From positions 120,645 through 184,644 of the forward strand of contig NSJX01000049.1 of the NCBI GenBank assembly GCA_002286715.1: DNA of 64,000 bases, in the 5' to 3' direction. This DNA comes from Dentipellis sp. KUC8613. Lineage: Eukaryota > Basidiomycota > Agaricomycetes > Russulales > Hericiaceae. This document shows positions 45,580 through 64,000 of the stretch, one piece after another. Each line of letters starts with the position of its first letter. Positions within the stretch are counted from its first letter, which is position 1. The translations under genes were made by a program, and so were the position numbers. Below the pieces are notes generated by a model. That model was not told the DNA's origin. It worked only from the letters and a program-made list of their open reading frames with translations, and ran no database searches.

Positions 45580-46160
45580 TACCCAGTTGTCTTGTTTTGT
45601 TCCGACCGCACCACGCGCGCTATAAGCTACCGTGTAGAAATCAAGTGGTTGATAGAGTGATATATAATATGATATAGTAGCTACATGATAAAATGCCTGC
45701 CCAAAAAAAGGAAAGCTGCCGCATATCAGGCGACCTCGGGCTCTCGGCCATGTTGTCCCAGAAAAGAAACAATAGCCGCGCGTCCACCGGCCCTACACTC
45801 AAATTGTTCTTCTTGTCTTCAATCATCATCCAAGGCGATCAACTGGCTTTCGTTTGACTGGCTTTCGACAGGAGACACTGAATGCCGCAACATCGAGAGT
45901 CTCGAATTGGACATACAGTCTTTCACACGTCCTTGATCCACGCGATTGAAGTTGCCCCTCCTAACACGCAGATCCAATTAAAACTTCAAATTGAAGCATA
46001 GGAAACATAAATACGTACTTTATGAGTACACCTGTATTTTTTCGTGGAACGCAGAAGTGTGTGTGGAGGTGTAGAGGCAGACTACGGACTTAGTTCAGCG
46101 AGGGTCATTTAGGTAGCATGCTTGACCCCAGAGCATATTGCAGCAGTCATGTATGGTCAG
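45580..46160. other. Junction between ordinary gene space and the repeat/element region
   Basis: No gene supported. Base composition becomes more AT-rich between 45600 and 46100, just before the repeat array. The true left end of the element may lie here, but I cannot see terminal inverted repeats. Confidence 0.4.
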
Positions 46161-46167
46161 CCCATGT

Positions 46168-46843
46168 GGGCCCACGGTAGATATAGCAGTATGTTAACAG
46201 GGTGGGCCCATGAGAATGCTAGTAGCATCCCGGTTGATGGGCCCGTATGTGTTGATCAGTGCAGTGATGGCATCAATCAGAAGCAACTCGATCGTCCTCT
46301 GTCTTTGCTTGATGGGCCCAGGCCTAAGTTGACCATTCTGAGTTGATGGGCCCATGGTCAAGTGAGTTCGTGGTACATTGCCTGGCCCATGTTCGGGCAT
46401 CCATGGCACGATGATGGGCCCGCATCAGTAACTTAGCGGTGAAACCATCATGCCATGGTGGGCCCACATGAGCAGAATTGTTCTCGGTTGCTGGGCCCAT
46501 GTAGCTCAAGACCTCCTCCCATGCTGGGCCCATCATAACATTGGGTGGTCTTCGTTGATGGGCCCAGGCCTATACATCCCAACCTGCATTGCTAGGCCCA
46601 TCGGCCGTATCCATAGGCTATCGTCTTTCCCTCATGATATGATGCTGGGCCCACAGGGCTATGTTCCCTTTTGGTCGATGGGCCCACCGGACATAACATT
46701 GGGTGGTCTTCGTTGATGGGCCCAGGCCTATACATCTCAACCTGCATTGCTAGGCTCATCCGGCCGTATCCATAGGCGACCGTCTTTTCCTCATGATATG
46801 ATGCTGGGCCCACAGGGCTATGTTTCCTTTTGGTCGATGGGCC
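46168..46843. repeat. GGGCCC-palindrome repeat array
   Basis: At least 15 copies of GGGCCC, most within TGGGCCCA or GATGGGCCC, occur in about 680 bp, starting at 46168. Spacing is 30-70 bp and the DNA between is mostly non-repetitive on the left. On the right, a 158-159 bp unit is duplicated in tandem: 46532-46690 and 46691-46849 differ at only a few positions. The array is non-coding. It could be a subterminal repeat region of a DNA transposon. Confidence 0.8.
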
Positions 46844-46880
46844 CACCGGATCCAGTCCCTCCGGATGGCCGCGGGTATGC

Positions 46881-47650
46881 CTCCAGGTCATGGCCCATCC
46901 ATATCACCTGCCGTCTGTTAGACACCTCTTACAACTGCATCGATTATAGCGTTTTCAGTAGATACAGCTTTTTGTTTCTACCGTCTAAAAGCCACCACCA
47001 CCTCAGCAGTCAATCGCCACAGGTGGCCGCGGCCTCCCGAACTTCGAAGGCCGCGGATATTCTTTTCTCACTTCCACTATCTGCAGGTGTGTCTCTGCTA
47101 CCTTGAATAGCCGCGGGTATGTCTTTGCTGCCTTCAATAGCCGCGGGAATGTCGTCGCCCCCTTCAATAGCCGCGGGCATGTCTCCGCAGCCTTCAATAG
47201 CCGCGGGCATGTCTCCGCAGCCATCAATAGCTTCGAGAATGTCACCGTCACCGTACCTCCAGGTCATGGCCCATACATATTACCTGCCGTCTGTTAATCG
47301 CCTCTTACAACTACATCAATTATAGCAATTTCAGTAGATACAGCTTTTTGTTTCTACCGTTTAAAAGCCACCACCACCTCAGCAGTCAATGGCCACAGGT
47401 GGCCGCGGCCTCCCGAACTTCGAAGGCCGCGGATATTCTTTTCTCACTTCCACTATCTGCAGGTGTGTCTCTGCTACGTTGAATAGCCGCGGGTATGTCT
47501 CTGCTGCCTTCAATAGCCGCGGGCATGTTTTGGCTGCCTTCAATAGCCGCGGGCATGTCTCCGCAGCCTTCAATAGTCACGAGAATGTCACCGCCGCCTT
47601 TAATAGCCGAGGGCATATCTTCGCTGCATTCAATAGCTGCGGGCATGTCT
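46881..47650. repeat. Tandemly duplicated 375-bp block containing a 30-bp minisatellite
   Basis: The segment starting CCTCCAGGTCATGGCCCAT at about 46881 recurs at about 47256, and the next 370 bp match closely. Each block ends in a minisatellite of 30-bp units (AATAGCCGCGGGCATGTCTC followed by CGCAGCCTTC): about five units at 47106-47230 and seven at 47480-47650. Unit length is a multiple of three, so both strands stay open and give spurious 10-aa-repeat frames. Most units carry the CCGCGG core found through the following 15 kb. Confidence 0.85.
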
Positions 47651-48225
47651 TATGTGCTATTGATCAGCCATTTTATTTAGGTTGTAAATTTTGTCAGCTC
47701 GCGAGAAATTTCCTACCGGATGTCATGCCGTGTCAATTGCTACCGAATTATTCCAAGATACATGCAGTCTTCCAGTCTCCAGAATGAGCGACTCCATTGG
47801 CGAGGACCCGTCTACTTGATTTCAAGGCAGGCACTTTGTATAATGGTCGGCCGTGTAGCATTACTGCATGTGGTACATTAATACAACATACTCCCGCGCC
47901 CATTCTGTACAAACTGTGGATGTCCATTCATTCCCTCTATGAATATTCTTGTATACCCGCAGGCATCTGTTTCCAAGAACGATTGTCCGTAACTCAAGAT
48001 TGAAGCAGAGCTTGATGTATGCACATGCTGTGTACGTCTTCAACCAGCAGTTCACCACACATTTTGCTCTCGACATTCCCAGATTGTGAATGCAAAGGGG
48101 GCTCGTCGCAATTGGATCTCCATTTTACCGCGATAAGGTTATTGTTCTGACGATGATGTCATCGTTACCATTCCTGGAACCTATTTGTCCCGCCTGGTCC
48201 TTGTCACCTACCTTTCGCCTCACAC
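47651..48225. other. Spacer before the first element gene
   Basis: No coding segment supported. It contains the probable promoter of the gene at 48226. Confidence 0.45.
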
Positions 48226-49260
48226 ATGATGAACCCTAGTCACAGAGACCGATCTCCATCTCCAGCTTACTACCATCGACCTCGGAATCTGGAATTCATC
48301 GCACGGAAGGATCGCGCAATAATTGGATTGGCTTCAGCTCGAAGGAAGCTTCAAATCAACACATTGAAGAGGATCAGGCTTCAGAAGGAGGAAGGTGAAG
48401 AGGTCAGCACAAAGAAGGATGCAGGGTTATGGGTGAGTGAGGTGCCTTTTCTAGACAACGCATTAGCTCAAGTTAGTAGTATCGCCTGGCGGCATCCGTT
48501 GGAGCCAGTGCCATTGGCGTTGCAAGACGCCAGCTACGCCGGGAAGGGCCGTGGCCCTATCAAAGACACATCCAGGCGGACATCCCTCTCCCATCCAACT
48601 CCAGGACAATCGCTGTCCCGCCGTCATATCTCCCCTACGTCCCCAGAGACATCGTGCGGCGCTTTCGATCTGAGTTCCACATGGATCGCAAAACCGTCGA
48701 CTTCATTCACTACTATCCGGGACCTGCGGCAGAGCTTTCGGACTCCGAGGATATTCCTTTGGAGTCCGAAAATTCGAGCGAAGAAGATGAGAGGGAGTGT
48801 TTGAGCAGGGAGGAGTATGAGGAAGAGCAACTCGATTTCGACACTAATGCCCGCGGGCTTGCTCCTTTCGACAGCTGTCAGGAAGAGCGATCACTCCGTC
48901 ATTTTTTCCCCATTTCCAGACCCACCGCCGTCCTCGACATTGCGTCTGTGCTGTATTGTGAGGTACGAGGCTCTAACGTACACCGTATGTCTCACAGACT
49001 GACGTGAAGGCTCTCCATCTAAGCCTAATTCGGGGGAACAGTCTCAGGCTGGGTCTGATGAAGCAGATGGAGAAGTGACTGCCGTAATAGATCACCTGTG
49101 CAAGTTGGCCGAAGGTCTCGATATCACCGCGGGCAACGGTATGGTACATTCAAGAGAGCAGCTGGAGTACTTCAAATACGGGATGCAGGGTCTGTCACAC
49201 GTTTTCGGGAGGGACTCTTTCAATTCACAGGGAGAGGGGCCCAGTAATGTACAGGGGTAA
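48226..49260 (+). CDS. Element-borne acidic protein, 302 aa, function unknown
   Basis: Exons 48226-48432, 48480-48962 and 49042-49260 join in phase. The first exon starts MMNPSHRDRSPSPAYYHR and has a basic helix ARRKLQINTLKRIRLQKEE. The second reads YRLAASVGASAIGVARRQLR, then VPRDIVRRFRSEFHMDRKTV and an acidic run SEDIPLESENSSEEDERE. The third has TAVIDHLCKLAEGLDITAG and ends GEGPSNVQG-stop. Two CCGCGG motifs lie in the coding sequence, giving NARGL and ITAGN. It heads a series of three plus-strand genes. A longer isoform splicing into downstream DNA cannot be excluded. Family not recognised. Confidence 0.6.
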
Positions 49261-49387
49261 TCTAGTATACAACCTTTGTAGCCGGTCCAAAACAGTGTCT
49301 TACGTAAGAACGGTCTTCCTTGTGCAGAGGAGTCGCGCCTTGGTGATTGCACTTTCCCCATCCCACACACGAATAACTGCTTCAAAT

Positions 49388-50047
49388 ATGCCTCGCACCA
49401 AGAATGTGGCCAGACATCCCCTTGCTCGTGGAGGCAGTAGGCGGAGGCAATCCTCGGCAGCAAGGATGTCTGTTTCCGTTCGTCCAAGAGCGTTTGAACC
49501 GGAGAGGGATGACAGCCCCGAAGACGAAGAAGAACACCTGCAGAGAACGGAGGCAGAGAGGTTAGAGGTAAGACCACGTTTACCGACAAATATTTCATGT
49601 ATACTCATTACTGTATAGCACTGGGTCAAGGTTTACTCATTCGCGACTGAGGAAGGGAGCTAGAATGACATCTTTGAGCAGGAACACCGGAAGCAGGTGA
49701 TGGCAGCAAGCTACTCGGACAGCTCTGATACCCGAGGCACCCTGGCATGTCTTCAACATTGTGCAAGGCAAGAGCTCAAAGATGCTTTGCGCGACGCTGG
49801 CAGGGAGGGAGAAGGATTATCTCGATACAAGGAGGTAGAGTCATGCCTATGCATATTATGGTGTTTTTGTCTCATAGACAGGGCGTAGATTCAAGACGAC
49901 GTTGTGGATTCCCCACCCCCATCCGAGCACCACTCCGACGTTGATGAAGACGAGGATTCCGATCATTGCTCAGAAGACTGGTCGGCGAAAGCCATGGACA
50001 ACGAGGAGGCGGACTGGGAAAGCGAGGACGATTTGCCACTTGAGTGA
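49388..50047 (+). CDS. Element-borne small acidic protein, 163 aa
   Basis: Exons 49388-49567, 49682-49834 and 49889-50047 join in phase to 163 aa. The N-terminus MPRTKNVARHPLARGGSRRR is basic, followed by acidic DDSPEDEEEHLQRTEAERLE, a central EHRKQVMAASYSDSSDTRG, and a very acidic end with HHSDVDEDEDSDHCSEDW and ESEDDLPLE-stop. The bipolar charge suggests a histone- or nucleic-acid-interacting protein, which is an inference. Only 127 bp separate it from the gene before it and 40 bp from the gene after it. Confidence 0.55.
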
Positions 50048-50087
50048 TGTCTTCTATCTCCTACATCTACCACCCGTAACTAAGGCT

Positions 50088-50965
50088 ATGTCTAGACGAC
50101 CATTCCCTGAGAGTCGCGGTCGTCTTTCCGACAAGGTCTTAGACTGCATAGTTTGGCGTATCGAACAGGGCCTTCAGACTATCGGGGAGCCTGGAACGCA
50201 TAGATGGAACTTCTGGGAGGCCTGTTTGCATCACGAAATGGTGCGTATATCTTTTCGTGAAGAGCGCAACGGTGCTCGGGATCCGCCTATTGCCGTGAAG
50301 GTCATTTACCATTCTTTGGCACGATGCCCGCGGGTATCCAGTTCTGTCGAGGAATGGCCGCGGCCAACGGTTCCTCCCTTTTTCACTGGGTGGATTCTAT
50401 CTTACTGTTCCTATCACAGGCATCTGCTTCTCTTGTCATAGGTTTGGGACTGTTGGCTGGGCAACGACCCTACATTCCTTATCGCCTGCACGCGCTGGAC
50501 CACAATCTCATGTACTTGAGTGAGTCGTGGCTCCAGGGAGCTACTGCATACGAGGATTACAAGAAAGGGTTTGATGTCGCCAAACCCGATTTTACCTTCG
50601 CTGCCACCGAATGGTGGCTGACTCCCGATCCCCTTCCCTCTCTGAAAATGACGCCTGAAATCGTCAATGAAACGATGACTTGCGTCATCGAGATAGTGGA
50701 GAGCGTGCGTTGGTATCTTGAATGCATCCTCCTGAACTTGCTCACCATGTCTTAGAGGAGAATGGAGGATCCCATTTATCAACATCTCCATCAAATCATC
50801 ACAACCATAGACCGGCATCGTGACGAGAAGACGGCACGCGCAAGATCCCTGTACAAGGAATGGTGGGAACTTGAGTTGAAAAGGGGGAAGGTTCAGCAGC
50901 TTCTTGATGATGAGTTTGGTGGATCAAAGCGACAACAAGAAAGAGGAACGCAGACAGACTCCTAA
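50088..50965 (+). CDS. Element-borne 241-aa protein with C-terminal coiled coil
   Basis: Exons 50088-50240, 50342-50704 and 50756-50965 join in phase. It starts MSRRPFPESRGRLSDKVLD, continues GEPGTHRWNFWEACLHHEM, and exon 2 has FCRGMAAANGSSLFHW then ASLVIGLGLLAGQRPYIPY, YEDYKKGFDVAKPDFTFAA and TPEIVNETMTCVIEIVES. Exon 3 is a charged helix (DRHRDEKTARARSLYKEWWE) ending ERGTQTDS-stop. The acceptor of intron 1 lies immediately downstream of a CCCGCGGG palindrome copy, and a second copy encodes MAAAN. It converges on the transposase gene, whose stop is only 28 bp away. Family not recognised. Confidence 0.6.
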
Positions 50966-50992
50966 AATTGTATCTATTGCCCGCGGTCTATG

Positions 50993-53900
50993 TTACAAAT
51001 TGTATTCGTCCCCTTCCTCTCCCGGAAGTCCCCACCGAAGCATGCTGTCCTCTCCAATGGTCTCGATAAATGCCTTTCTTGCGTCACCAGCAAATTGCCT
51101 CCACATCGCCTCCTGCCTTCTTGCATAGGCCTGGTGGCCAATAAAATTGTTCCTTTGAGATTGCTCGGCTCTACGGCACCAGAGCTCCGCGGAATTCTCA
51201 AAGCTCGCAATCGTCCACTGCATTTCAAATGGCAGCACAACCATCTGCTCACACCATCTGTTATATCGGGCCTTTGTTCGAAGCCAAGTCACTCGGTAAA
51301 CTAATCCGTTACAATGAGTTTGGAGTGCGGAGTCGTGAACTAGCAATACGTACAATCACGTAGCCATTCACCCTGATCCTGAATATCATGGATGTCCGTT
51401 GACCAGATCCAGGATCAATTTGCGTCTCTATTCCCGCGGGCATGCAGGTCCACCAGGGCCGTCTCCACCCGCATGTCCGCGGGAACCAACAGCCGATATT
51501 TTGCCAGTGTTGTCGGATCCGCGCCTAGACGTATCAGGGAGAATCGAGCTTTAGTATATATGCGAGCTTGCTGCTGAACGCTGTTCTCGACTTGATTCAA
51601 AGCCCGCCATGCTTTCTGCATCTCTGCTTGGGATTTCGCTGGACGTATGTCCACCCGGTAAGTAGTAGCTTTGTGGGCCAGCGCCATCCGGAGGTTCTCC
51701 AATGCGTCGTTAGCCTGTCCCTTTCGGAGGGAGATTTCGTCCGCTACTGCGTCTCCGAGATCTGCATCCTCTCTCCATTTCTTCCCGAAGCTTGAGGGGA
51801 GCGGGAGCTGCTGGTTCTCAATCTGTATACGTTGGCCGCGGGCATAACCATTCCCGTCTCCGCGGGCATATCCAGGTCCGTCCCCGTGGTACGGCTGGAC
51901 CCCCTCTACATCATCACCAGTCACCTCATCAAACTCTGAGCCCTGGAAGCCGTCGTACCCCAATATGCTTTCGGAAATTTCAGATGTTATCCCGATGGCC
52001 TCAGACATGGATCGGCTAAGGGCATCTATCCTCGTCTTCAGGCGCCAACGGCGATCAGTCAGATCATTTTTCTCTGCTGTAGAAGGCGACTTTCCTAGTC
52101 GACGGACATATGCGGCTAGCAGAAGTCTTTCAAAGAAATTAGCAGAGACATGACGCTCTTGTTACTGTATGACTTACTGTGCCTCTTGGATCTTCATACC
52201 CGCGGCTATCCAGGAAGCCCGCCCAGTCATTTCCCCAGCCATTTCTTCCTTTTCATTCAGTTCCAGTAGTATTTGGGCTCTGCTGGGAGCTTATAAAACC
52301 GGAAATGTTATAAGATAATTCGGCAGCAGTGTCGGAAACGAAAGCCTCACGTTTAATTCCCATAGAGTTGTATATAAGCATCCCGTCTCTATCTTCCTCT
52401 CGATTTTGCAATGCTTCGATCTCCTGCGTACTCCAGGACTCAGCGTCCTCCGGACGAGTTGCATGTTGGACACGTCGCCACTCCTCTTCTGCGGCGGCTA
52501 AACCTAGCTTCCCTTCACGATACTTTCTCTTCAGCGTCGAGGCTATAGATGATGAGCATTTTCCTGTCTGAATCAGACCCTATTGACTTACTCGATTTCA
52601 CTTTCTTCTTCCAGTTGGAATCTGAAATGTGGCTGTCCAAGTTCTCTCGCCTATGAGAGACAGTCATCCCCCCCGTACTCCTTGCGGCGCCGTTCAAATC
52701 GGACCATAAGGTTTCAATGACCTCTCCATTGATCTGCCGCCCACCAATCATGTAAGTGGGGGAGAATTTCGGGATGCATCCGTCGACGTGGCCATGAACA
52801 TGAAACAATCCGATTGCATGACGAATGGTCAGCTCGTCAGGTACATTCCTCAAATACTTTCCCTCCAGCAACCTCTTGAGAAAGTGGACTCCGTATTGGC
52901 ATATGATGTCATAGAGTATGACCGCGTCTTCAATTCCCTCCATCCGATAACAGAAGGCGCTGTTATAAGCAAAGTCCATGTACATTTGTCTGGCATTTGT
53001 CAATTATGGAATAAGAGAGATCCATTGACAAACTGCTCACTGCTCTGAGACCAGAAAGTTAACAACTGATGCTGGGAAAAAGAACCCGTGAGAGCAGGAA
53101 ACCGCCCCTACTCCGGTAAAATGGGCATTGCGACGTCCCTTCTTGTTCTGGTCCGCGGCTTTATGTCAATTACAGGTAGCTCTCTGAAAAGATCGTTGGT
53201 TAGAGCTTCTATGTCATAACAGACACAATATATCTTAACAAATGAGTAGGAGGATCCCTTTCGAGATGATTCATCTGAAGTTGCCGCTAGAGGTATGGCC
53301 GCGGGCATCATCCGCGGCCATAGGATGCCCGCGGCAATAGAATGCCTGGGGCATCAGGATGCCCCAGGCAATATGATGCCCGCGGCGATACGATGCCCGC
53401 GGCCATACCATTCGGCTTGCAAATTCAAAGGGATAGATATTTACTCACATCACCTGTCTTTGGATCATATCGAGTCATCGCGTCTGCCACGTGCTTCCTG
53501 TATACTTCTTCATTTGACATGTATCCTTGACCATCGCTGAGAGCCACGTCATTTTCTGGTTTCTTCATCGGTCCCATGGTCAGCTTCATGTTGCCATCTC
53601 CATTGAAGAACCGATAATATATCCACCTATCGTGAATTAGAATTGAAGAAAACCGACGGCGCGTAGTACGAACCTTCGGGGATCCCGATTTTCCTTCCAG
53701 TTCTCCGGGAGATTATGGGTTGGCTGAGGACATGTGGGGCAAAACGAGGGTGTTGCAAGGGATCCTGGGGAGTCCTCATAGTCTTCGTATCCATCTCCAG
53801 CCCATTTACGAGCCTTCAAGTCAGCCCATTGACGGGATACCCTCAATAGCTCTCGGTATCGATTCTGGCATATGAAGCGTTTAGTTGAGGAGCAGACGAA

Positions 53901-55032
53901 ACAGTTAAGGAGAATATCTTACGGGAACAGCATGAGGAAAGGCATTGCTTGTTCTACGCCGAATGAGGAGATAGTAATGGTAAGCCGTCATTTTGCATTC
54001 GACGTTTGCAAGGTAAAATTCATCCAGAGCACGAAACGAGAAAGCCGTACGAGGAGCTTTGAATGAACTTGGAAGCAGACCAATATCAAACAGTTGCATT
54101 GCATGTGTCTTCGCCGTTTGGCAAGTGCACCAGACTACATTCAGCTGGTGAGCACCTGATGAGTTGATCAAAAGAAGTAGAGGATTTCCGTCTCTATCAC
54201 AGGAGCTCTCTGGTGCAAAGCTTGTAAAGAAGTGTAGCTCGTCGGGATTTGAAGTCTCATTCTCTGGTTCGTCAGCCAATTCCGCCTCCTCCTCAGCCAG
54301 GTCGTAGTATTGCCCGCGGGAATCATTTTCATTCGAGGATGAGGATGTTGGGTTCTCTGGAGTGACCGCAGATGCGCATGGGCACGGATTGCCCCCATGG
54401 CCCAAGTGAAGCTTCAGCCCAGCATCCCGTAGCCAAGCAGGCCCATAGAAGTCTCCTTGCCACTTCTCAACTCGATGAAATGGAAGATGGCAATGGCGAT
54501 CCACACAGCAAACGTCGCATTCGACAGGCTGACCAAGGCAGTCCTTGCATCTCCAAAGAGCAGGGCGTTCGAGACAGCCAGGACAAATTTCCGTAGTGGG
54601 TGCCTTCTCCGAATCCAATAGTCGGTGGAGAAACTCGCCTCGAAGATGAAGCCACTGGTGTAGATAATCGTGCTGCCCCTAGAACAACGTCAGGGACGCA
54701 GGTATAGCAAAGAAAACAGCTTGACATACAAGCGATTGAGCACCATGAGTATTCTCATCAGACAAGAGGCGCTCGTCAATGCTCTGAGTCCCGAGAAACT
54801 CTCTAACAGAGTCCCCGCGGGCATTCTTGACTTTTGACTTTCCGGCCTTCCGCAAAGACCGCCTCTCATCGGTAACATCCTTTTCGATGTACCGGACACC
54901 ACGAGTAGTTGTTTTTTCGATCCATTCGATTTGACGGGACCGCCTAGCCGGATTGTCCCCGACCTTTCCGTAGCGTTCTAGATGCCCGCCTTTGAGCCTC
55001 TTGATCCTTGGTCTGGGAGGGGAACGAGTCAT
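50993..55032 (-). CDS. KDZ (Kyakuja-Dileera-Zisupton) transposase with CxC2 cysteine cluster
   Basis: A DDE-type DNA transposase predicted to cut and insert the element. From the ATG at 55032 (MTRSPPRPRIKRLKGGHL): DYLHQWLHLRGEFLHRLLD, the cysteine cluster ICPGCLERPALWRCKDC with DVCCVDRHCHLPFHRVEKW (54460-54600), AFSFRALDEFYLANVECKM, the KDZ core CPTCPQPTHNLPENW (about 53700-53745), FNGDGNMKLTMGPMK and LSDGQGYMSNEEVYRKH, NKKGRRNAHFTGVGAVSC (about 53100-53150), SEQ spliced to QMYMDFAYNSAF, YDIICQYGVHFL, VIETLWSDLNGAARSTGGM and HRRENLD, then a coiled-coil C-terminus ending GLPGEEGDEYNL-stop. Candidate acidic catalytic residues are kept. Exon structure between about 53150 and 53450, where a nested palindrome lies, is unresolved; the rest looks open. 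Confidence 0.85.
53294..53410. repeat. Nested palindrome cluster inside the transposase gene
   Basis: About 115 bp with five CCGCGG sites. The outer 18 bp at each end are perfect reverse complements (GGTATGGCCGCGGGCATC and its mirror). The centre is an independent palindrome in which TGCCTGGGGCAT faces ATGCCCCAGGCA. Units of about 17 bp (ATGCCCGCGGC plus a short A/T-rich spacer) appear in both orientations. It probably lies in an intron. Confidence 0.85.
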
Positions 55033-55298
55033 TGCTGCTGTTGTTAGATGGTAGAGAAACGATAAGTTTCGAGTCCAAGAGTCGTGGTATGCCGTCGTCT
55101 TGAGAAAGCGCCTGAAGACTTCTGATTCTCCGACGTGTCCCGACACCTCGTCCCTTGAACACCATGTGGCATGATGACCGCGGCCTCGTGGTCGGCACGT
55201 GAGAGACTGAGATGACGAGAAATTAGATTAGTCACAGGAGTATCTTACAAGACTAAGAGAAAGGATAGGGAATAGATGAAAGCTAAGGTATTATCTGA

Positions 55299-56636
55299 TT
55301 ATGTTGGGACAGTAGTGGGAGGAGAACAGTAAAGATTTATGTACTGTGTTCGGTACATCCAGCCCGGTGATTTCTTTCGAAGGAGTTCATGGATAGAATC
55401 TCGCATGAAGAACGCGTAGCATATTCGCTCACCATCGAAATCCGGGACCTCATGCTCCACAAAGCTACCACAGAGAGCTATCAAGGTTCCAGGTGGGTAG
55501 GCGAGATACACCCCAAGTTTCCGAAGCCCGAATATCGCGGCAGTGTACGGCCCCACGGAACAGACAACATCATACCATGGCGATCGAGTATGACCGTCGA
55601 TATGAGGCTTCGTGCGCCGATTGACAATGACTTGTATCCCGTTGAAGATGGATACCCACTCCATAATGACCGGGTAGAAGTCTGGTTGGCCGCGGAGATC
55701 GCGTATGACCTCAAATCCGGCTTCGTAGAGGGCGGGGTGCATAACGATCATGCATGCGTTGATGATCGCGCATGTCTCCGTGATTTTTCGGAGACAGAGT
55801 CTACCTTCTTGTCTCTTATTCGTTGGCTTGAGTGAGGCGGAGATCTCAGGTTTGAATTGCGGTCCCTATGCCTCTCGTCAGCGAAGAAACGCGGCAGGAA
55901 CACGACGATTCCACGTTACCTTGTGTCCAGCTTGATACCAAGCGGGCGAGAGGGTTACGATACCACGAAAATCTTTGCTCTTCTCCGCAGAGAGAAACTG
56001 CGACGGGTCGTCCCGGCCAATAGTCTTCCCAGAGCGGTGCTTCTGGGGTGAGCCCACCACAAGCATTGGCTGCAAGAGTCTTGCAGCCTCTTCCAGATCT
56101 CGCTATTCGAAGAACTCGTAAGAGCGCAAATCCATAAGCATTACAATCTTCGATTTTATGACTTACCTGCCATTCCTCTGAGAGGACTGCTGGAAGGTGC
56201 CAGGCCAAAATCACCTCATGAATGTCCACCACAACACAAGGCAGCTCCCTGACTTCCTGGTCCTCCAGAGCCGGATATTTCAAGGCGAAGGTTTCGCTAT
56301 CCTTCCCTTGTTTGCCCGAGGCATACCTCTCAGCGTCCCAATCAACTTTCACTACAGTTTTCGTGAGGATAAGACAAAAATGAATAGCCGGGTGGTCGCA
56401 CCTGGATTATGGACTGCTATTGCCATCTGGTCAACGGCGACATCGAGGTCCATGATGATTTCCGTTCGCAATTCCATGGGACGCGGGATGTCGGGCGGAG
56501 GTGACTTTCCGGATTTCTCAGCCGCGGTCTGCTCCAACCGGTTGTAAAATCTGTCCCGAACGTAGCGGGACATGAGTGGAACCAAACCGCATATTTTATA
56601 GGTTTCTTCGCAGTGGAGGGAGGGATCTATGGACAT
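55299..56636 (-). CDS. TET/JBP-type 2-oxoglutarate/Fe(II) dioxygenase
   Basis: The family oxidises thymine or 5-methylcytosine in DNA; fungal members oxidise 5mC. Start MSIDPSLHCEETYKICGL at 56636 (an in-frame ATG at 56810 is an alternative). The segments join in phase: MAIAVHNPV with KVDWDAERYASG, HLPAVLSEEWQ, FRGIVTLSPAWYQAGHK with GPQFKPEISASLKPT. The last exon carries the catalytic core: FNGIQVIVNRRTKPHIDGHT with the iron-binding H-x-D, WYDVVCSVGPYTAAIFG, YPPGTLIALCGSFVEHEV with the distal His, and FDGERICYAFFMRDSIHELL with the 2-oxoglutarate-binding Arg. All ligands are present, so the enzyme should be active. It ends SPPTTVPT-stop at 55299, 266 bp upstream of the transposase start on the same strand. 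Confidence 0.88.
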
Positions 56637-56810
56637 TTTACTGTGAATTAGTGTGTGGTTTTGACCGCGTTTTGACGCGAAACCGAAGACGATTCTCGAC
56701 TTGCACTCTGCAGCAGTCGTCGATCTCTGCAGTAGTTGATATTGCCGTTGAACACCGGCCAGAACTGCTGATGAAGAGCGCCGGCAATCACCGACGATGC
56801 CAACCATCAT

Positions 56811-57507
56811 GATGGTTGCCAGCAACGCCACCCATCAAGGCACACCTTCAGGGGTATCAGCGAAGCCTAAGACCGCATGTCACCGGCCCCACTGACGAGT
56901 GTTGCGAACTGCTCAATCGTAGACGGATACAAGACTGTTCGTCTCTATTGTTCTTGGGATCGGGTCTGCAGTGAGGAAGGATAGTTGAGGTGAGGGTTGG
57001 ATTGTATCTCACGACGTGCAATATTAACTAGTGATGGGGCCTGGAGCCAGGCTGATGTTCTGATCAAGCCGAAGCACGAGGAAGGGACAGATCCCATCAC
57101 GACCCGATTGCGCTTCCGGCAACCTGATGGAAAGCCTAGCTTTTGGCTTCCATCACTTTCATTCGGAATGATGTTCAGTAGTCAACTTCAGTGTCAGACA
57201 ATTGTCGTTGGCTGCAGTGAGTCTGAGGACATGCATAGATCGAAATGTCCAATTCGTATTCAGTGACCATAGCCCTCTGCGAGATTGTGAGTTGCGAGGG
57301 ATATGGCTTCAAAGACAGCTGACGCTCTTGCTTTTATTCATATCTATCTCCGGCTGACCATCTGAGCCAGGCCTGGTATGACTGAGATGGCAACCGGGCT
57401 AAGGCAAGGATCCAAGAAAGTATTGGTAGGGGTTAATACCAATTTTCCTTTCGTTGCGTCCCACCATACAGTACATCGCGTCTCCCGCTCCAGAATTATC
57501 TTCGACA
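56811..57507. promoter_or_regulatory. Divergent promoter region of the dioxygenase and the cargo gene
   Basis: About 0.7 kb lies between the minus-strand dioxygenase (from its earlier possible start) and the plus-strand gene at 57508. No TATA box is clear. The right edge carries a CCCGCGG palindrome at the start codon. Confidence 0.4.
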
Positions 57508-60500
57508 ATGCCCGCGGCCACTGATAACGTCGACACACCGCTTGAAGACCGGAGAATCTCTGTTGCCACTATAGAGGCGATACTCTCTCCAAAGCTCGCT
57601 ACCTGGAAGGACGGTGATAGTCCAAAACGGAACTTGTTGGTGAAAGACTGTGTCCGGCAGATACGAACTCGAGATGGGTCTTATTGGGATCCATGGGAGG
57701 AGGGTATGGGGGTCTTGATCAAGGTACGTCCTAGGACCATCTCTTCGTCATGTCCACTAACAAGTATGATAAATCGCCTGCGCTGTTCAGAAAATTACCA
57801 ACTGGTTCCGGAATCATTCACGCGAGAGACCGTCTGCACCCAAGATGTCCCTCCTCCGTCGTCCTGACTGGCGAGTTGTACTGGGAGAGACACGGAAACA
57901 GGAGCTATACCAACTCCTTGAGGATGAGTACGACATCAAGGTCGGAGACCCCGGTTGGATCAAATTCTATCAGAAGGCCATCACGTTGTTCGGCGAGAGG
58001 AATCCAGAGGTCAAGATGGAATGCATGGAGGAAGCGAAGACCTGGAAGAAAGCCATCCCAGATGAGATAAAGAAATCGTACGCCCTCGAGTTCTTGTCAT
58101 GTCTATAGTATCTGACCTGAAAACACGAAGTCGTGCTCAAGACAATGCCCGACGGCTCTGCCACGCATTCGCCGCGGCCATGCATGACAATCTGGGAGTT
58201 GAGCTTTTCATGAGGATCGGCTTCGTTGATGCAGATGACGAGGTCGTCGGCGCGGTGTACGTTGTGTACAGCAGCTCATTTATTTGTTCAGTACTTAGTC
58301 CTTCTGTCTCATTCAGAATCGACAAGGCAGGGGAGTTCAATGGATGTCAGTCTTTCCGAAAGGCTTACCCAGCCGCCGAGAATTGCGGGTGTGAAGAATA
58401 TTGGCGTGACTATCTTTGTTGTATGTGGAGTAAGTCGTTTCACTGATACCATAGTACCATCTTGACACGTGGTCGGATAGAGGCAAAGAATGCTGCCGAG
58501 GGACTACGAAAGCAGGAACCCGACGTCATCTTTGAATACGATACCACGGGATGGCCTATAATGCCTAATTTGCAGACGTTGCTCAACTCACAGCTTCTGA
58601 CCAGAAAGAAGTTCCTCAGAAAATTTGTTCAAGCCCACTATGGTGCGTGTTTCAATTAATTCTGCTCCATCGTGTTCTTAGCTGCAATCTTAGACATCGC
58701 ACGAGAGGGAGAAGGTGTCGCTGTGCCTTGGAACGAGGTTTGGCAACCTGATTCCGCCTTCTTTGACGTCGATATATATCTACCAAACGATTACGACTGG
58801 TCTGATAACAAAGCAGACCCTGCGAAAATAAAGACAGCTCATTTGGAGAAGATTTTTCGTCATTGGGACGCTCGACAAGCTTCAGGGCTTCGGACGTTTC
58901 AATTCAAGAATGTCAGACTAAACTCTAAAGGCGGAACAGGGGAACTGCGTCCCGCATGGGACAAACCCCTGGAGTCCTCTTCTGCCATTGCTCAAACATC
59001 TCGTCAGAGGGGCCGCCGTGCTGGTGCAGGCCGGGCGAATCAGCAAGCACGTGGGCGACGAGGAGGCAATGCCCGCGGGCAATCCGCGGTAGCTCGAACG
59101 CAAACCAATGAGTCGGATGAAGAAGAGGTTCAGGTTCCGCATGGTGCGGAAGAGGACATACCGGATATTGATGAGGACGACCTCCGAGATATTGACGCAG
59201 AATTCGATGAAGACCCGGACAAGCAGGACGAGGAAGAAGAAGACGACAACGGCGGGATGGAAGGCCACAACGACGAGGAGCACTACGATGAGCTCGAAAG
59301 GCTTCTGGGTGGGACTGCGTCCCTCTATTCCTCTCCCTCGCAACCAAGGCTTCCTTGCGACGTCCCTGCAAGCTCAGACGCGAGGCTGAAGTTCTTGTCA
59401 GGATTTTGTGGGGGAGATGAGGTTTTTGACAGCCTCCTTGCCGCGTTCTCTTCTTTGAAGGTGAATTGCTATGCGTTTTGTAACCCGCTTGGCCCATACT
59501 TATGGTCTACGGCAGGCTATTCCCGGGACTCGAGCTCCAGGAGGATTCAAGTTGCCCTCAGAGTGGGCTGAAGAATTTGCGGGTTGGGCCTACGATGAAC
59601 AGTATCTCCCTCCCAGTTTTCATACCCGTGCGCGTCTTTCTGAAATCAACGACTGGCTATCGGAAGATCCCTGGGTCAACCCAAAGACAGGAGGTTTACG
59701 AGACAAGACGTCTCTGGAACAACTTCTTTTATTCCTTGCTTATATGATCCATGATGCGAACGCAAAGTGGGCTGCGTTGGAAGACGACGAAGAAGCAGGT
59801 GGCATAGGGCTCCTACCCTATATAGTCGGAAGCGACGTCGAAGAAGATGAAGTCGAACAGCACATTCACCCGGCAATCGTTCGATTTACTAGTCGGATTG
59901 TCCGGAACGATCACCATACGAGCCTCGGATCATCAAGTACTGCGCCCAGCTTGCCTTCTGCTGGTGTAGGGAGGAATGCATCTTCACCGGGAAATTTGTC
60001 ATTAATGCCCGCGGCTACTAGAGAGGCCCAGCCATCGCATACCTTTCTTCCCCCAATACCCGCGGGTATTCCTGCAGAGCAGACTTTCAATGCCTCTGGC
60101 CGATCCATATCGGCTGTCAGTGGTCCCTCTATGTCTTTTCCGACTGGTGATTCTGGACACCAAAATATGGACTTTGCCGGCTATCAACTCGTCAATGGAG
60201 GAGGGCCTTATCTCCGAACTCCACAGCCCTGGCAAGCGTCTCAGTTCCAAGCGTCTCAGTTCCCAGGTCTTGGTGTGCAACCACAGTTAGAATTACAAGC
60301 CCTTCATGCCCCCTCTTCGTATCAAGGGCTCCCAGAAAGCTCTCAGATTCATGGAAGTATGGCGTACCTTCGCCCCGGCCCATCCCAGTACCAAGGAAGT
60401 CCTGTCTTCGATCAGAACACACCAGTCCTCCCCCACACACAAGATGGCGGCGATCAAATGGACCCTATTCAGTGGATACTGTCTCATCCCTCCTTTATGT

Positions 60501-61089
60501 CTTCGCAAAACCCTGGAGCAGCAAACGCATCCCAACGGACTGATACTGTACAACCACCGTTGCCGCAAAGGGAGTCGCTCACTCATAGACCCAATCTACC
60601 GACTATTCCAGAGTCTCAGTCAGCCTCTTCGTCTGCGGCAGCTGTCGAAAGCGTGCTGGATGGCCGACCTCAATTTAGTCAAACCTCTGAGAAGAACTCG
60701 CCAGGCCAACAGGACAAGTCGACTCCAAACGTTGACCCCGCGGGAACCGCCGGGACGACACAGCTGCGACAGGACAGAGGTAGCCGTCAGGGGGTGTCGG
60801 GAACCTCGAGACTGGGACAAAAGCAAAGAGCGGGAACATCCTCAGGTCGAGGTGAAGCAACTCCTCGAAGCTCTCAGAACCAAGCCCCTCAGAAGCCCGC
60901 AGCCAACCAGAAGAAATCGGCGGCTGCTATTGGTGAGATTTACAGGCTCTAAGGGCTTTTCCTTACCCTCTGTGGTCGCCGCGGAAATCTAACAAATCAG
61001 TAGGAAAACGGCGTTTGGCAGAGACTGAAGCACCTACAGAGAGACAAACGAAAAAATATAAGCATGCAACGGTCCCTTACAGCGACTGA
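57508..61089 (+). CDS. Large element-borne acidic/Gln-rich protein
   Basis: Start MPAATDNVDTPLEDRRISVA at 57508. Phase-consistent introns join VLIK to KITNWFRNHSRERPS, KKS to RAQDNARRLCHAFAAAMHD, VVGAV to IDKAGEFNGCQSFRKAYP, MW to KAKNAAEGLRKQE and AHYG to AAILDIAREGEGVAVPW. A long exon has an Arg/Gly-rich stretch (SRQRGRRAGAGRANQQARG), an acidic run and DSLLAAFSSLK, joined to AIPGTRAPGGFKLPSEW. The C-terminal third is Gln/Pro/Ser-rich, and a final intron leads to VGKRRLAETEAPTERQTKK ending TVPYSD-stop, a likely nuclear signal. The FRNHSR element recalls KDZ-associated proteins. It is about 1,000 aa, with no enzyme motif. Probably a chromatin or transposition accessory factor; function unknown. 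Confidence 0.7.
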
Positions 61090-61760
61090 CTTGCATCGAA
61101 GCCGAGATCAGCAAGAAAAGCTAGGGATGAGGTCGATGTTAATTTAATTGTGGAGGGTAAGAGGCAACATGCTCCGAGCAGACGGGCTAGGGGGGAGGAG
61201 TGATGCATTGTATACCTCTTTATTTGATTACATACCCGCGGGCTCTCTTTATTGTAGCCTTGTACTCCCGAAGTCGTTAAAAGGATGAAGTCGATGTTAA
61301 TTTGATCGTCGAGGCTAAACGGAGACATGCTCCGAGAAGACTGGCTAGGGGAGAGGAGTGATGCATTGTGTACCTCCTGATTAGTTTACAGTGTTGGAAG
61401 ATATGGAATCATGTATGCCCGCGGCTAACTCAAGCTTGAAGCATTCCAGAATTGGTACTGTAGATCGATACCCGCGGGCTCTCTTTCTTGTAGCTTTGTA
61501 CTCCCGAGGTCATTTAAAGGATGAGGTCCATGTTGATTTGATTGTGGAGGGTAAGAGGCAACATGCTACGAGAACACAGGCTAGGGGAGAGGAGTGATGC
61601 ACTGTGTACCTCCTGATTAGATTACAGTGTTGGCACATACGGAGTCACGTATGCCCGCGGCTACCTCAGGCTTGAAGCATTCCGGAATTTCTACTGTAGA
61701 TCGATACCCGCGGGCTCTCTTTGTTGTCGCTTTGTATTCCCGAAGTCGTTTCAAAAAATG
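61090..61760. repeat. Triplicated 3' repeat with conserved coding frame
   Basis: Three related units follow the cargo gene, marked by GATGAGGTCGATGTTAATTT at about 61128, 61283 and 61521. Units 2 and 3 are about 238 bp apart; unit 1 lacks an 83-bp segment. Each reads KDEVDVNLIVEGKRQHAPSR then ARGEE-stop in one frame, with small differences. Units 2 and 3 are preceded by a segment reading SSLKHSRIGTVDRYPRALF. They look like copies of a 3' terminal exon. CCCGCGGG occurs at the same place in each unit. Confidence 0.75.
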
Positions 61761-62080
61761 TAGCTCAGACAGATCCCCGTCCGTGCTGTCGTTTATCCAA
61801 CGTTTCCTTGTTCGAAAGCGTTATTGCTTCTATCACTATTGCCCGCGGGTAATTCGCAGGGGCAAAATCAACATCGTTCATTAAAGCAAGGGGTACTGTT
61901 ACTGAAATGATAGATCGGGGGGAAGGGTATGATGGACAAGATATAGCATATACAGAAATGATAGTCCTAGCAAGCAAAGGGAACGGAGAATAATGCGAGA
62001 TCGTCAAAGCTCGACGATTCGAGACGAATGGCTAAAGACCGCGGGTATACTCAAGGTGGACCACAAGTTCTGACTTGCCT
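61761..62080. other. Convergent spacer
   Basis: 3' flanks of two convergent element genes. Contains CCGCGG sites at about 61842 and 62040. No other feature. Confidence 0.5.
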
Positions 62081-62980
62081 CTACGATGAAGATGGCGGGG
62101 GTTGGAAGGCAGGTTGTTTTGCCACCAATCGGGCCAGAGTCTCTTCTAGAGCTTGAGTCTTTGATCTCGATTCGGAGACCCAGTCGTCGATTTTCCTGTG
62201 GGTGTCGTTCATGCCATTAATGCCAAGCTGCGCGTCGCTGAAAGCCTTTCGAAGCCCCTCCATGTCCTGGTCCACTTTTTCCCTGTGCGCCTGAGCTTCT
62301 TGCTTCATAGATGACATGTCGGTCTGAATGACCGAAATGTCGGACGCCTGACCGTCGACGCGACTCCGCAATTGCTCGACAATGCCTGTGAGGGTCCGCA
62401 TTTTGCTGTTGAGCGCCATGTTTGCTCGCCGAATGTCGGCATCGGCGCTACCTTCGCGAGACATCAATCCTGGCGTGGAGGCGGTTGGAGGGTTAGCGAG
62501 GGTAGGCGGAGTCGATGCGTCCACCCCACTAAATGCGAAGCGGCCTGGTTGGGACGGTCCAGCGACATTGGCCGCGGGTACTTCTTTCTTGACCTCAGGG
62601 AAGATGGCGGGATTGTACTTGAGATTCATGGCTTCCTCATGGGAAGCGGGAGCTTGCAGTTTTTCAAGCAAAACTGCAACATCTAGTCCATGGGCCTGGA
62701 CAAGGTGGAGAGGCGGGAGGTAGGGAACAGGAGGGAGTTCTTGAATGGGCTCCCGAGCGTGCATTGCAAGACACTCCCACATCTCAAAGGGGTCCATGTC
62801 GACGTTTGCACGCCGGGTCTTCGAGACGTACAAGCATTTGTGCTTGGAAGTCCTGCATCGCCCACAAGAGGTTCCGAACTCTGCCGGATTGCAAGTGAGG
62901 TTCCGCCCCTTGCATGTGTAGCAACCCGTGATGGGCTGAGACTTGTCAGATGTATCGTTAATCGTAGGCTGAGAAATCAA
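62081..62980 (-). CDS. Zn2Cys6-type protein with C-terminal coiled coil
   Basis: The frame contains GCYTCKGRNLTCNPAEFG followed by TSCGRCRTSKHKC, spaced C-x2-C-x6-C-x8-C-x2-C-x6-C, which fits the fungal binuclear zinc cluster used in DNA binding. A Pro-rich middle (QELPPVPYLPPLHL) is followed by a long amphipathic helix (SKMRTLTGIVEQLRSRVDG and SVIQTDMSSMKQEAQAHREK), ending FQPPPSSS-stop at 62081. One CCGCGG copy encodes PAANV. The 5' end is unresolved: the open frame continues up to a CEAC sequence beside a perfect GTAAGT donor at about 62985, and no proper ATG is seen, so an upstream exon probably exists. Likely a DNA-binding accessory protein of the element. Confidence 0.7.
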   Translation of the reverse strand: MISQPTINDTSDKSQPITGCYTCKGRNLTCNPAEFGTSCGRCRTSKHKCLYVSKTRRANVDMDPFEMWECLAMHAREPIQELPPVPYLPPLHLVQAHGLDVAVLLEKLQAPASHEEAMNLKYNPAIFPEVKKEVPAANVAGPSQPGRFAFSGVDASTPPTLANPPTASTPGLMSREGSADADIRRANMALNSKMRTLTGIVEQLRSRVDGQASDISVIQTDMSSMKQEAQAHREKVDQDMEGLRKAFSDAQLGINGMNDTHRKIDDWVSESRSKTQALEETLARLVAKQPAFQPPPSSS

Positions 62981-63360
62981 CTTACATGCTTCACATCTGA
63001 AAAAATAAAGATTTACATAGCCACCACTGTGGTTATATATGCTATGTGTCCTATGAAATAAGATGCCAAGCTATGGAAGACTCCATAGCAGCCATAGCAA
63101 CCATAGCTGGAAGGAGCATTTCTATAGCAGCAGTGAACATCTTCATAGCAATGATAGACTATGTAATTTGTCTCAAGGATTCATAGCCTTGTATAGCTAC
63201 TACTACATCTATGTTACTTATGCACTGCCCATATGCCCAAGCTTCATCATTTATTATATTTCTTCACCAACAGTTGAGAGTACATATTAAATAGATTTGT
63301 AGTGTCATACAGACTAGATACAATACAGGTAATGGTAGTGTGAGGAGTGGATAGGCAGAG
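62981..63360. repeat. CATAG-rich, AT-rich segment
   Basis: CATAG, CTATGG and CCATAGC occur repeatedly in both orientations between about 63020 and 63210. Coding content is not apparent. This may hold the right end of the element or the missing 5' exon of the Zn2Cys6 gene. Confidence 0.45.
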
Positions 63361-64000
63361 TTAGTGCATGATGGAGGGTGCAGGTGTGCGGGCACGAGGA
63401 TGGTGTGGGCGCGAGAAGAACATGTGACGTCCCAACGATGGCGCGACGGGCGCGTGAGGGTGCGACAATGGCGCGAGGGTGCGCGGGCATGACAGCGCGA
63501 CGAGAGCGAGACTGGGGCGACAATGCAACGACAACATGCCGGCGCGACAGCGCGAAGAGGGGGTGAGGGGGTGCAGGCACGACGTCCGGAAGAGGGCGCA
63601 ATGATGACGGCACGAGGGCGGGCACGAGACGGGTGAATTGGGCGCGACAGCGCAACGAGGGCGCGCGGGCGATGGCGCGACGAGGGCACGCGGGCGAGCA
63701 CACGGGCGCGATGGTGCGACGAGGTCGCGAGCGCGCGAGAAGGGCCCTACGGGAGTGCAAGGGCACGACGGCGCGAAGACCGGTGTGAAGACGCGACGGC
63801 GCGACAGCGCGAAGAGGGCGCGAGGGTGCGGGCGAGGGTGTACGGGCACGACGGCGCTACGAGGGTGAGACCGGCGCGATGGCGCGACGGCGCGACGAGA
63901 GCGTGCGGGCGTGACTGCACGAAGAGGGCGCGAGGGTGCGGGGGTCGACGAGGGCGCGATGGCACGAGAAGGGCGCGATGACACGACAGCGCGACGAGGA
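63361..64000. repeat. Degenerate GCGCGA-type minisatellite, truncated by the window
   Basis: Over 600 bp of short purine/GC words such as GCGCGACGAGGGCGCGAG, repeated irregularly every 8-20 bp. Frames on both strands are open only because of the low complexity; their Arg/Pro/Ser/Ala products are not genes. The repeat continues past the window end. Confidence 0.85.

Follow-up and report, generated by a model that had tools for sequence, protein, structure and literature searches.

Within a 64,000-bp stretch of contig NSJX01000049.1 of Dentipellis sp. KUC8613 (hereafter the window; C116:120645-184644 of the 34.1-Mb genome, its right edge at position 64000 being the contig end), we found that positions 46087-62994 hold most of one KDZ transposon (16,908 bp) bearing a TET/JBP dioxygenase gene, and that this element carries, throughout its length, a palindrome whose complete form occurs nowhere else in the genome. 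How a transposon-borne TET finds its own element is the question addressed here, and a private palindrome that is better kept than the surrounding DNA gives a direct test of it. We consider it quite possible, though short of probable, that the element practises self-targeted anti-silencing, in which an element-encoded factor would bind the palindrome and bring TET to the element; the palindrome is then possibly an address label that steers the enzyme back. A preliminary description of the window, which had seen one composite element able to modify its own methylation state, was made without the palindrome, and it is the palindrome that makes self-targeting a concrete idea.

The hexamer CCGCGG occurred 50 times in the window copy, versus 3.5 expected under a dinucleotide model, and 54 times in a complete second copy on another contig (C151:39545-60932, 21,388 bp; 90% identity to the window copy in the main aligned block), versus a simulated mean of 4.9 and a maximum of 11 in 500 simulations. 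Five other all-CG palindromes, pooled, gave 7 occurrences in the window copy, and none of the nine one-mismatch classes of CCGCGG was enriched. Most sites were embedded in a 14-bp palindrome, ATRS-CCGCGG-SYAT. With both copies pooled and the flanks symmetrised, T stood at position -3 in 81%, A at -4 in 62%, a purine at -2 in 80% and S at -1 in 85%; 74 of the 104 sites matched at least six of the eight flanking consensus positions and 27 matched all eight, versus 0 of 19 CCGCGG sites with six matching positions in positions 1-46000 of the window. Across 34 Mb the complete 14-mer was found 27 times, 12 in the window copy and 15 in the C151 copy, and its reversed control twice. Because the consensus was drawn from these two copies, the matches within them are built in, and the independent fact is that there were none elsewhere in the 34 Mb. 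Three close CCGCGG in a row, tried as an element-specific mark, occurred 22 times genome-wide versus 26 for the control, and we therefore claim privacy for the complete 14-mer only.

We compared the two copies at each position once, excluding tandem arrays, and found that, of 61 CpGs in the motif, 52 were kept in both copies, versus 565 of 1025 CpGs elsewhere (Fisher p 1.7e-6) and 124 of 213 CpGs within 60 bp (p 6.9e-5), these values being guides because they come from one copy pair with sites taken as independent. The hexamer as a whole was kept at 22 of 30 sites, versus 134 of 368 other two-CpG hexamers (p 1.3e-4). These data bear on whether the motif is kept between copies and not on the reason for it. 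Twenty-one of the 50 window-copy sites lie in tandem arrays, the palindrome being multiplied in units of 30, 17 and 236 bp (Table 1), and the copies share a near-identical block that suggests conversion, both of which would suit a palindrome spread neutrally, by tandem duplication, gene conversion or local mutation bias, with no protein bound to it. We hold such an origin to be highly improbable, since 29 sites stand outside the arrays versus 3.1 expected, the flanking consensus recurs in the majority of sites, and the hexamer is kept preferentially over other two-CpG hexamers.

The boundaries of the element were set by the C151 copy, which is flanked on both sides by a perfect 7-bp target-site duplication (TSD), GTCCGCG, and has the termini 5'-CACACAATG...AACTAAGTC-3' with no terminal inverted repeat (TIR). 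The left end of the window copy lies at 46087, and its homology to the C151 copy stops at 62994. The right terminus of the C151 copy is also the exact end of a fragment at C45:1796-3502, and the flank of that fragment, CGTAGTC, is in element orientation the same 7-mer as the window-copy flank GACTACG. On the simplest reading, a single insertion would have been broken up by an assembly gap, leaving one end on C116 and the other on C45. Alignment to other genomic copies, which the preliminary description had proposed, thus brought out shared ends and TSDs and no TIR, and the shared termini, the perfect TSD on C151 and the matching 7-mer at both ends of the window copy agree with its claim of one composite element. 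A mobile element comprising KDZ, TET and accessory genes is well supported.

Pfam profiles matched the minus strand for KDZ (E 1.3e-23), CxC2 (E 4.4e-24) and Tet_JBP (E 3e-14), in accordance with the KDZ transposase with cysteine cluster that had been recognised from the letters alone. The element has a KDZ domain with a CxC cysteine cluster and a 7-bp TSD (on C151, and for C116/C45 across two contigs), and is most likely a KDZ DNA transposon of the Kyakuja type. TET-bearing KDZ transposons of Agaricomycetes were reportedly described by Iyer et al. in 2014, and the accessory genes may already have been noted there or by Chavez in 2014. The linkage of KDZ with TET in these fungi, which the preliminary description had taken as known, is indeed described in PMC12730594 (Kojima 2025). 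According to that source, the TSD is 7 bp in Kyakuja and 8 bp in Zisupton and the Dileera example Zisupton-1_PGr, and two Laccaria families (Kyakuja) have 5'-CA..TG-3' termini without TIR. Like TET-bearing Kyakuja, the present element has KDZ with an adjacent CcTet-like TET/JBP gene, a 7-bp TSD, no TIR and one terminus that begins CA; it differs in its opposite end, which is ..TC here and ..TG there (PMC12730594).

A genome-wide search with the Tet_JBP profile gave nine matches, seven of them above the curated cutoff, and each of the seven has a CxC2 match on the same strand, the TET start lying 1.4-1.7 kb upstream of the CxC2 start; such counts of large families are lower bounds. Five of the 12 CxC2 matches were without TET. 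The seven TET loci form four lineages: C116 with C151, C171 with C46 (95% identical), C1 with C84 (97%), and C24. All seven carry, upstream of TET and on the opposite strand, the PW..HW..RQ..FK domain of the acidic protein. For the five loci outside C116/C151, its homology rests on local tblastn, with similarities of E 6e-4 to 0.013 only, and position and strand always agree. A genome-wide search with one acidic exon (E<=1) returned C116, C151, C171 (E 0.08) and, at E 0.27, C51, which looks unrelated, and did not recover the other four TET loci. The alignment of the domain holds six of the seven loci, C24 having been left out because its domain crosses the locus boundary.

Further upstream on the TET strand, five of the seven loci (C116, C151, C171, C1 and C84) encode a six-cysteine, zinc-cluster-like protein. 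At C84:436515 the frame is interrupted by a stop shortly after the cluster, at a point where the C1 frame stays open. Similarity of C46 to C171 ends before the zinc-cluster position, and no six-cysteine cluster was found upstream of TET in C24, where a cluster 12 kb downstream was left uncounted. The downstream genes D1-D3 were found in the C116 and C151 copies only; neither they nor the C-termini of the zinc and acidic proteins gave a tblastn match at E 0.05 in the nine other sequences tried. The proposal that KDZ travels with an accessory set therefore holds for the acidic neighbour (7/7 TET loci) and, in five of seven, for the zinc-cluster-like protein. It does not extend beyond the C116/C151 family for D1-D3 (302, 163 and 241 aa), and TET itself is missing from the five CxC2 loci noted above. 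The two sub-threshold Tet_JBP matches (C1:2538078-2538464 and C102:289002-289289), with no CxC2 match nearby, are possibly decayed or host TET-like genes.

Most of these genes are under constraint. Between the window copy and C151, the nonsynonymous-to-synonymous rate ratio (dN/dS) was 0.17 for the zinc protein, 0.18 for the TET core, 0.08-0.31 for five KDZ segments, 0.18 and 0.24 for D1 segments and 0.29 and 0.24 for D3 segments, with dS 0.404 and dN 0.034 in the first D3 exon; these figures omit stop-bearing, wrong-frame segments (the KDZ N-terminus, the TET middle and the first D2 and D3 frames). The acidic gene gave 0.26 and 0.19 in its two large segments and 0.60 and 0.08 in its first two exons (6 and 4 changes). 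The accessory frames put forward earlier as genes are accordingly borne out for zinc, acidic, D1 and D3, and less certain for D2 (163 aa), where dS was 0.131 and dN 0.068 over 60 codons, a weaker constraint than in the other accessory genes. The close packing of the genes was confirmed: with the end of the TET stop at 55299 and the KDZ start codon beginning at 55032, TET lies 266 bp upstream on the same strand, and the convergent stops of D3 and KDZ end at 50965 and 50993, 27 bp apart.

In the TET enzyme, the Fe ligands H88-x-D90 and H138, together with R147, R155 and D99, were invariant in all seven copies, which upholds the earlier call of an oxygenase with H-x-D, distal His and Arg. The closest solved match was CcTet of Coprinopsis cinerea (PDB 7vpn, E 6.4e-30), and the sole solved relatives at E<=0.01 were CcTet structures (7vpn, 7w5p; 8jkk). 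The features of AG-type TET/JBP enzymes are present (H-x-D..H Fe ligands, Arg and an equivalent of Asp337), and D99 aligns with CcTet Asp337, described as essential for activity on 5-methylcytosine (5mC) (Kojima 2025, PMC12730594). Since the closest solved relative is CcTet, it is plausible that the element would modify its own methylation state. Alike in Fe ligands and Asp337, the enzymes differ from CcTet at the position matching Gly331, which by alignment inspection is Gly in only one of the seven copies (C24), so that activity on N6-methyladenine (6mA) cannot be assumed.

The canonical Zn2Cys6 spacing is C-x2-C-x6-C-x5/12-C-x2-C-x6/8-C, and the zinc clusters of C116 and C151 fit it. Zn_clus was the best, sub-threshold Pfam match in three of the four zinc-protein fragments tried, and the C-terminus is coiled-coil-like, again by sub-threshold Pfam matches. 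The fuller model of the protein, in C151, has 713 aa; a database search with residues 400-713 yielded 3058 candidates, none at E<=1. The CGG triplet is the half-site read by Zn2Cys6 factors, and the dyads of two TET families are both pairs of CGG triplets: CCGCGG in C116/C151, and in C171/C46 a dyad of their own, TCGG-S-CCGA. The core CGGSCCG of the latter occurred 49 times in 18.2 kb versus 3.9 simulated, and its CpGs were kept in 85 of 92 cases versus 945 of 1134 (both directions counted, p 0.025).

A motif scan gave best scores of 25.9 for C116, 24.6 for C151, 30.5 for C171 and 14.8 for C46, followed by 7.1 for C1 (CTTCACC), 6.2 for C24 and 5.9 for C84. Nothing comparable was found in three TET-less KDZ loci (C31, 5.1 kb readable; C162, 10 kb; C56, 9.7 kb; C58 and C96 were left out) and three 15-kb flanks, where the best score was 5.0. 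In a dyad search of C1, C84, C24, C162 and C56, from which C31 and C46 were left out, none passed the minimum; the best host flank reached 8.1 versus 38 for C151 and C171. C24 had a moderate excess of a non-dyad hexamer, ACCGAG (29 versus 6.5 expected), and C1/C84 had weak excesses, ACTCCG (32 versus 8.8 and 7.0) and in C1 also CTTCACC (16 versus 2.4).

On the reading that we favour, ATRS-CCGCGG-SYAT would be bound by a dimer that the element itself encodes, most probably its zinc-cluster-like coiled-coil protein; this dimer would recruit or steer the TET protein, with the acidic protein perhaps acting as a bridge between them. TET so recruited would oxidise 5mC across the element and might thereby keep it unsilenced, without demethylating the host or rival transposons. 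Targeted anti-silencing fits best because of the CGG dyads in two families, the zinc-cluster-like protein with its coiled-coil-like tail, the 5mC-type oxidase and the selective retention of the dyads. Palindrome sites lie in exons (20 of 50, by approximate models), presumed introns and intergenic DNA, and coverage of the whole element fits because sites reach into coding sequence.

A different repeat occupies the ends. All 21 TGGGCCCA sites of the full copy fell within 80-380 bp of one end or 80-600 bp of the other and, despite the absence of TIR, the layout is symmetric and inverted: measured from either end, GACCCCA lies at 37 bp and TGGGCCCA at 80 and 116/117 bp. Of the 38 close TGGGCCCA pairs in the genome, this element's ends account for 36 (16 on C151, 8 on C116 and 12 on C45); the other two are at C88:22126 and C45:564619, and the reversed control gave none. 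The symmetric layout is perhaps a transposase footprint, and the terminal arrays would be the transposase's own end-recognition sites. These arrays bear on the idea that the palindrome is itself an internal site at which the transposase or another element protein acts in transposition (in synapsis, cis-preference or discrimination between full and deleted copies) and plays no part in methylation. In favour of this, repeated sites are bound by the transposases of many DNA transposons, the complete palindrome is confined to this element and its sites fill the element's length; even so, we regard a transposition site as distinctly unlikely, as TGGGCCCA already holds both subterminal zones with its paired, end-specific sites, and CCGCGG begins only inward of the TGGGCCCA arrays and runs through exons and introns. 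Because the TGGGCCCA arrays separately occupy both ends, the palindrome would be free for another job.

That job could also be transcriptional, the palindrome being an operator through which a transcription factor encoded by the element would switch on the element's genes. Zinc-cluster proteins usually act as transcription factors, a palindrome bound by a dimer is typical of operators, and single CCGCGG sites stand at 55178, in the 266 bp upstream of KDZ, and at 57512, at the acidic start codon. No site is present in the divergent TET/acidic promoter (56640-57507) or upstream of D1 (47700-48225), an argument that is weak because the array-free density predicts only about 1.6 and 1.0 sites there; the arrays that fall within a presumed intron or separate convergent 3' ends, together with the sites in exons, are a further, likewise weak argument. 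We consider an operator role unlikely.

Several observations weigh against targeted anti-silencing. The complete consensus is present in only 27 of the 104 sites and was derived from the same two copies, and retention rests on one copy pair per family, its sites treated as independent. The Zn2Cys6 label of the preliminary description is carried by the cysteine spacing in C116 and C151 and not by Pfam, the C151 cluster scoring 13.9 bits against a Zn_clus gathering score of 21, and the clusters of C171, C1 and C84 have six cysteines in non-canonical spacing. CpGs differ between the copies more often than expected for the dinucleotide, which was considered as a sign of 5mC decay and not borne out: TG/CA accounts for 256 of 469 changed CpGs, a share no larger than that of transitions overall (764 of 1318), and methylation of the element is therefore not demonstrated by CpG changes. 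A strong dyad is found in only two of the four TET lineages, and C1/C84 encode a zinc-cluster-like protein yet show weak motif candidates only. TCGGSCCGA is not private (241 genome-wide versus 227 for its reversed control) because a 9-mer is too short. Finally, Agaricomycete TETs have been speculated to act without target specificity (Kojima 2025, PMC12730594), a paper whose introduction mentions Vandal, yet which speculates on untargeted oxidation for Agaricomycetes. If TET were untargeted in this way, the accessory genes would be transposition helpers and the palindrome a mark for a host factor; we find this improbable, as by itself it leaves both the private motif of one family and the different dyad of a second family unexplained.

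The self-targeted mechanism has a counterpart in the VANDAL/VANC system of Arabidopsis (PMC5735166, PMC10398659), which is alike in having a short, family-specific motif multiplied over the element, often in tandem, and differing between related families. VANC targets lie in non-coding regions, and the palindrome arrays of the present element are reminiscent of the tandem repeats targeted by VANC proteins (PMC5735166). The present system differs from VANDAL/VANC, as portrayed in those texts, in its unrelated transposase and proteins, its on-board TET, a palindromic motif that also lies in coding sequence, and binding that is predicted. A family-private motif multiplied over the element is found in C116/C151, and the element is at most alike in working and not a VANC-type member, because its transposase is KDZ and not Mutator-like (VANC homology was not searched). 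In maize Spm/En, the element protein TnpA binds repeated short sites and reverses methylation; there the sites are subterminal, no TET is present and the element belongs to the CACTA superfamily. For TET-bearing Kyakuja, the parts of PMC12730594 consulted make no mention of a dispersed private palindrome, terminal TGGGCCCA arrays, or zinc-cluster-like and acidic proteins, and its main text lacks the terms 'subterminal', 'CCGCGG', 'Zn2Cys6', 'accessory', 'zinc finger' and 'VANC'; PMC8889193 lacks 'Kyakuja', 'KDZ', 'CCGCGG' and 'Zn2Cys6'. Among the literature matches listed, titles and abstract beginnings described no such motif system.

It is a more doubtful, broader proposal that in each TET-bearing Kyakuja family a fast-evolving zinc-cluster dimer reads the family's own CGG-triplet palindrome, dispersed over the element, and brings the on-board TET to it, anti-silencing of the VANC kind having evolved separately in fungi with a 5mC oxidase as effector. 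Were this so, sequence-addressed anti-silencing would have arisen at least twice, TET-bearing families would escape silencing independently of one another, and the element proteins could serve as compact tools for targeted 5mC oxidation.

Table 1. Features of the TET-bearing KDZ element and its borders, in window positions
Feature	Position	Strand	Remarks
Target-site duplication GACTACG (left flank)	46080..46086	.	7-mer recurs as CGTAGTC at C45 end
Left terminus, GACTTAGTTCAGC in window orientation	46087..46099	.	common to C151:60932
Subterminal TGGGCCCA array	46167..46845	.	full copy bears such arrays at both ends
Palindrome array, 30-bp units with CCGCGG in duplicated 376-bp unit	46865..47679	.	
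Downstream gene D1 (302-aa protein)	48226..49035 (end approximate)	+	purifying selection; found only in C116/C151 family
Downstream gene D2 (163-aa protein)	49388..49890 (end approximate)	+	C116/C151 family only; constraint uncertain
Downstream gene D3 (241-aa protein)	50088..50965	+	purifying selection; C116/C151 family only
KDZ transposase gene with CxC2 cysteine cluster, spliced	50993..55032	-	
Palindrome array, 17-bp period, presumed KDZ intron	53292..53409	.	
TET/JBP dioxygenase gene, spliced	55299..56636	-	H-x-D, distal His and CcTet-Asp337-matching Asp conserved
Acidic/Q-rich protein gene (~1,000 aa)	57508..60952	+	PW..HW..RQ..FK domain upstream of TET in 7/7 loci
236-bp tandem repeats with palindrome	61125..61852	.	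between 3' ends of acidic and zinc genes
Zinc-cluster-like protein, part	62081..62938	-	C-x2-C-x6-C-x8-C-x2-C-x6-C cluster and coiled-coil-like part
Sequence without BLAST match to full copy, replacing zinc-gene N-terminal exons	62995..64000	.	

Outside arrays the window copy is 91.1% identical to C151. In 200-bp bins, identity was 94-99% over 56600-60200 (95-99% over 57000-59600) and mostly lower outside that block, often 80-93%; dS was about 0.05 in early acidic-gene exons versus 0.27-0.53 in KDZ. The high-identity block and the low dS in those exons suggest recent gene conversion or a mosaic. At the right-hand side, BLAST gave no match to the C151 copy from 62995 to the contig end or in C45:1-1795, and the window copy therefore appears to be without the N-terminal zinc-gene exons; in their place, 62994-63107 matches C171:25605-25718 at 82%, and therefore a different repeat is joined there. 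Close to the contig end, 63432-63987 is a degenerate GC-rich minisatellite (GGCGCGACAGCGCGAAGAGG-like). The suspicion that a GC minisatellite is common to several KDZ copies was dropped, as no match was found at E 1e-8.

An old remnant of the element's right end, which includes a TGGGCCCA pair, lies at C88:22034-22173 (72% along 132 bp of the query). The 29 occurrences of ACCGAG around the C24 TET element (C24:14755-24066) are mostly dispersed, and this hexamer may be a third family code. Next to the C1 TET element, C1:2133915-2134493 holds CGGCATTA/TAATGCCG repeats at a spacing of about 98 bp, perhaps the target array of the C1 TET family.

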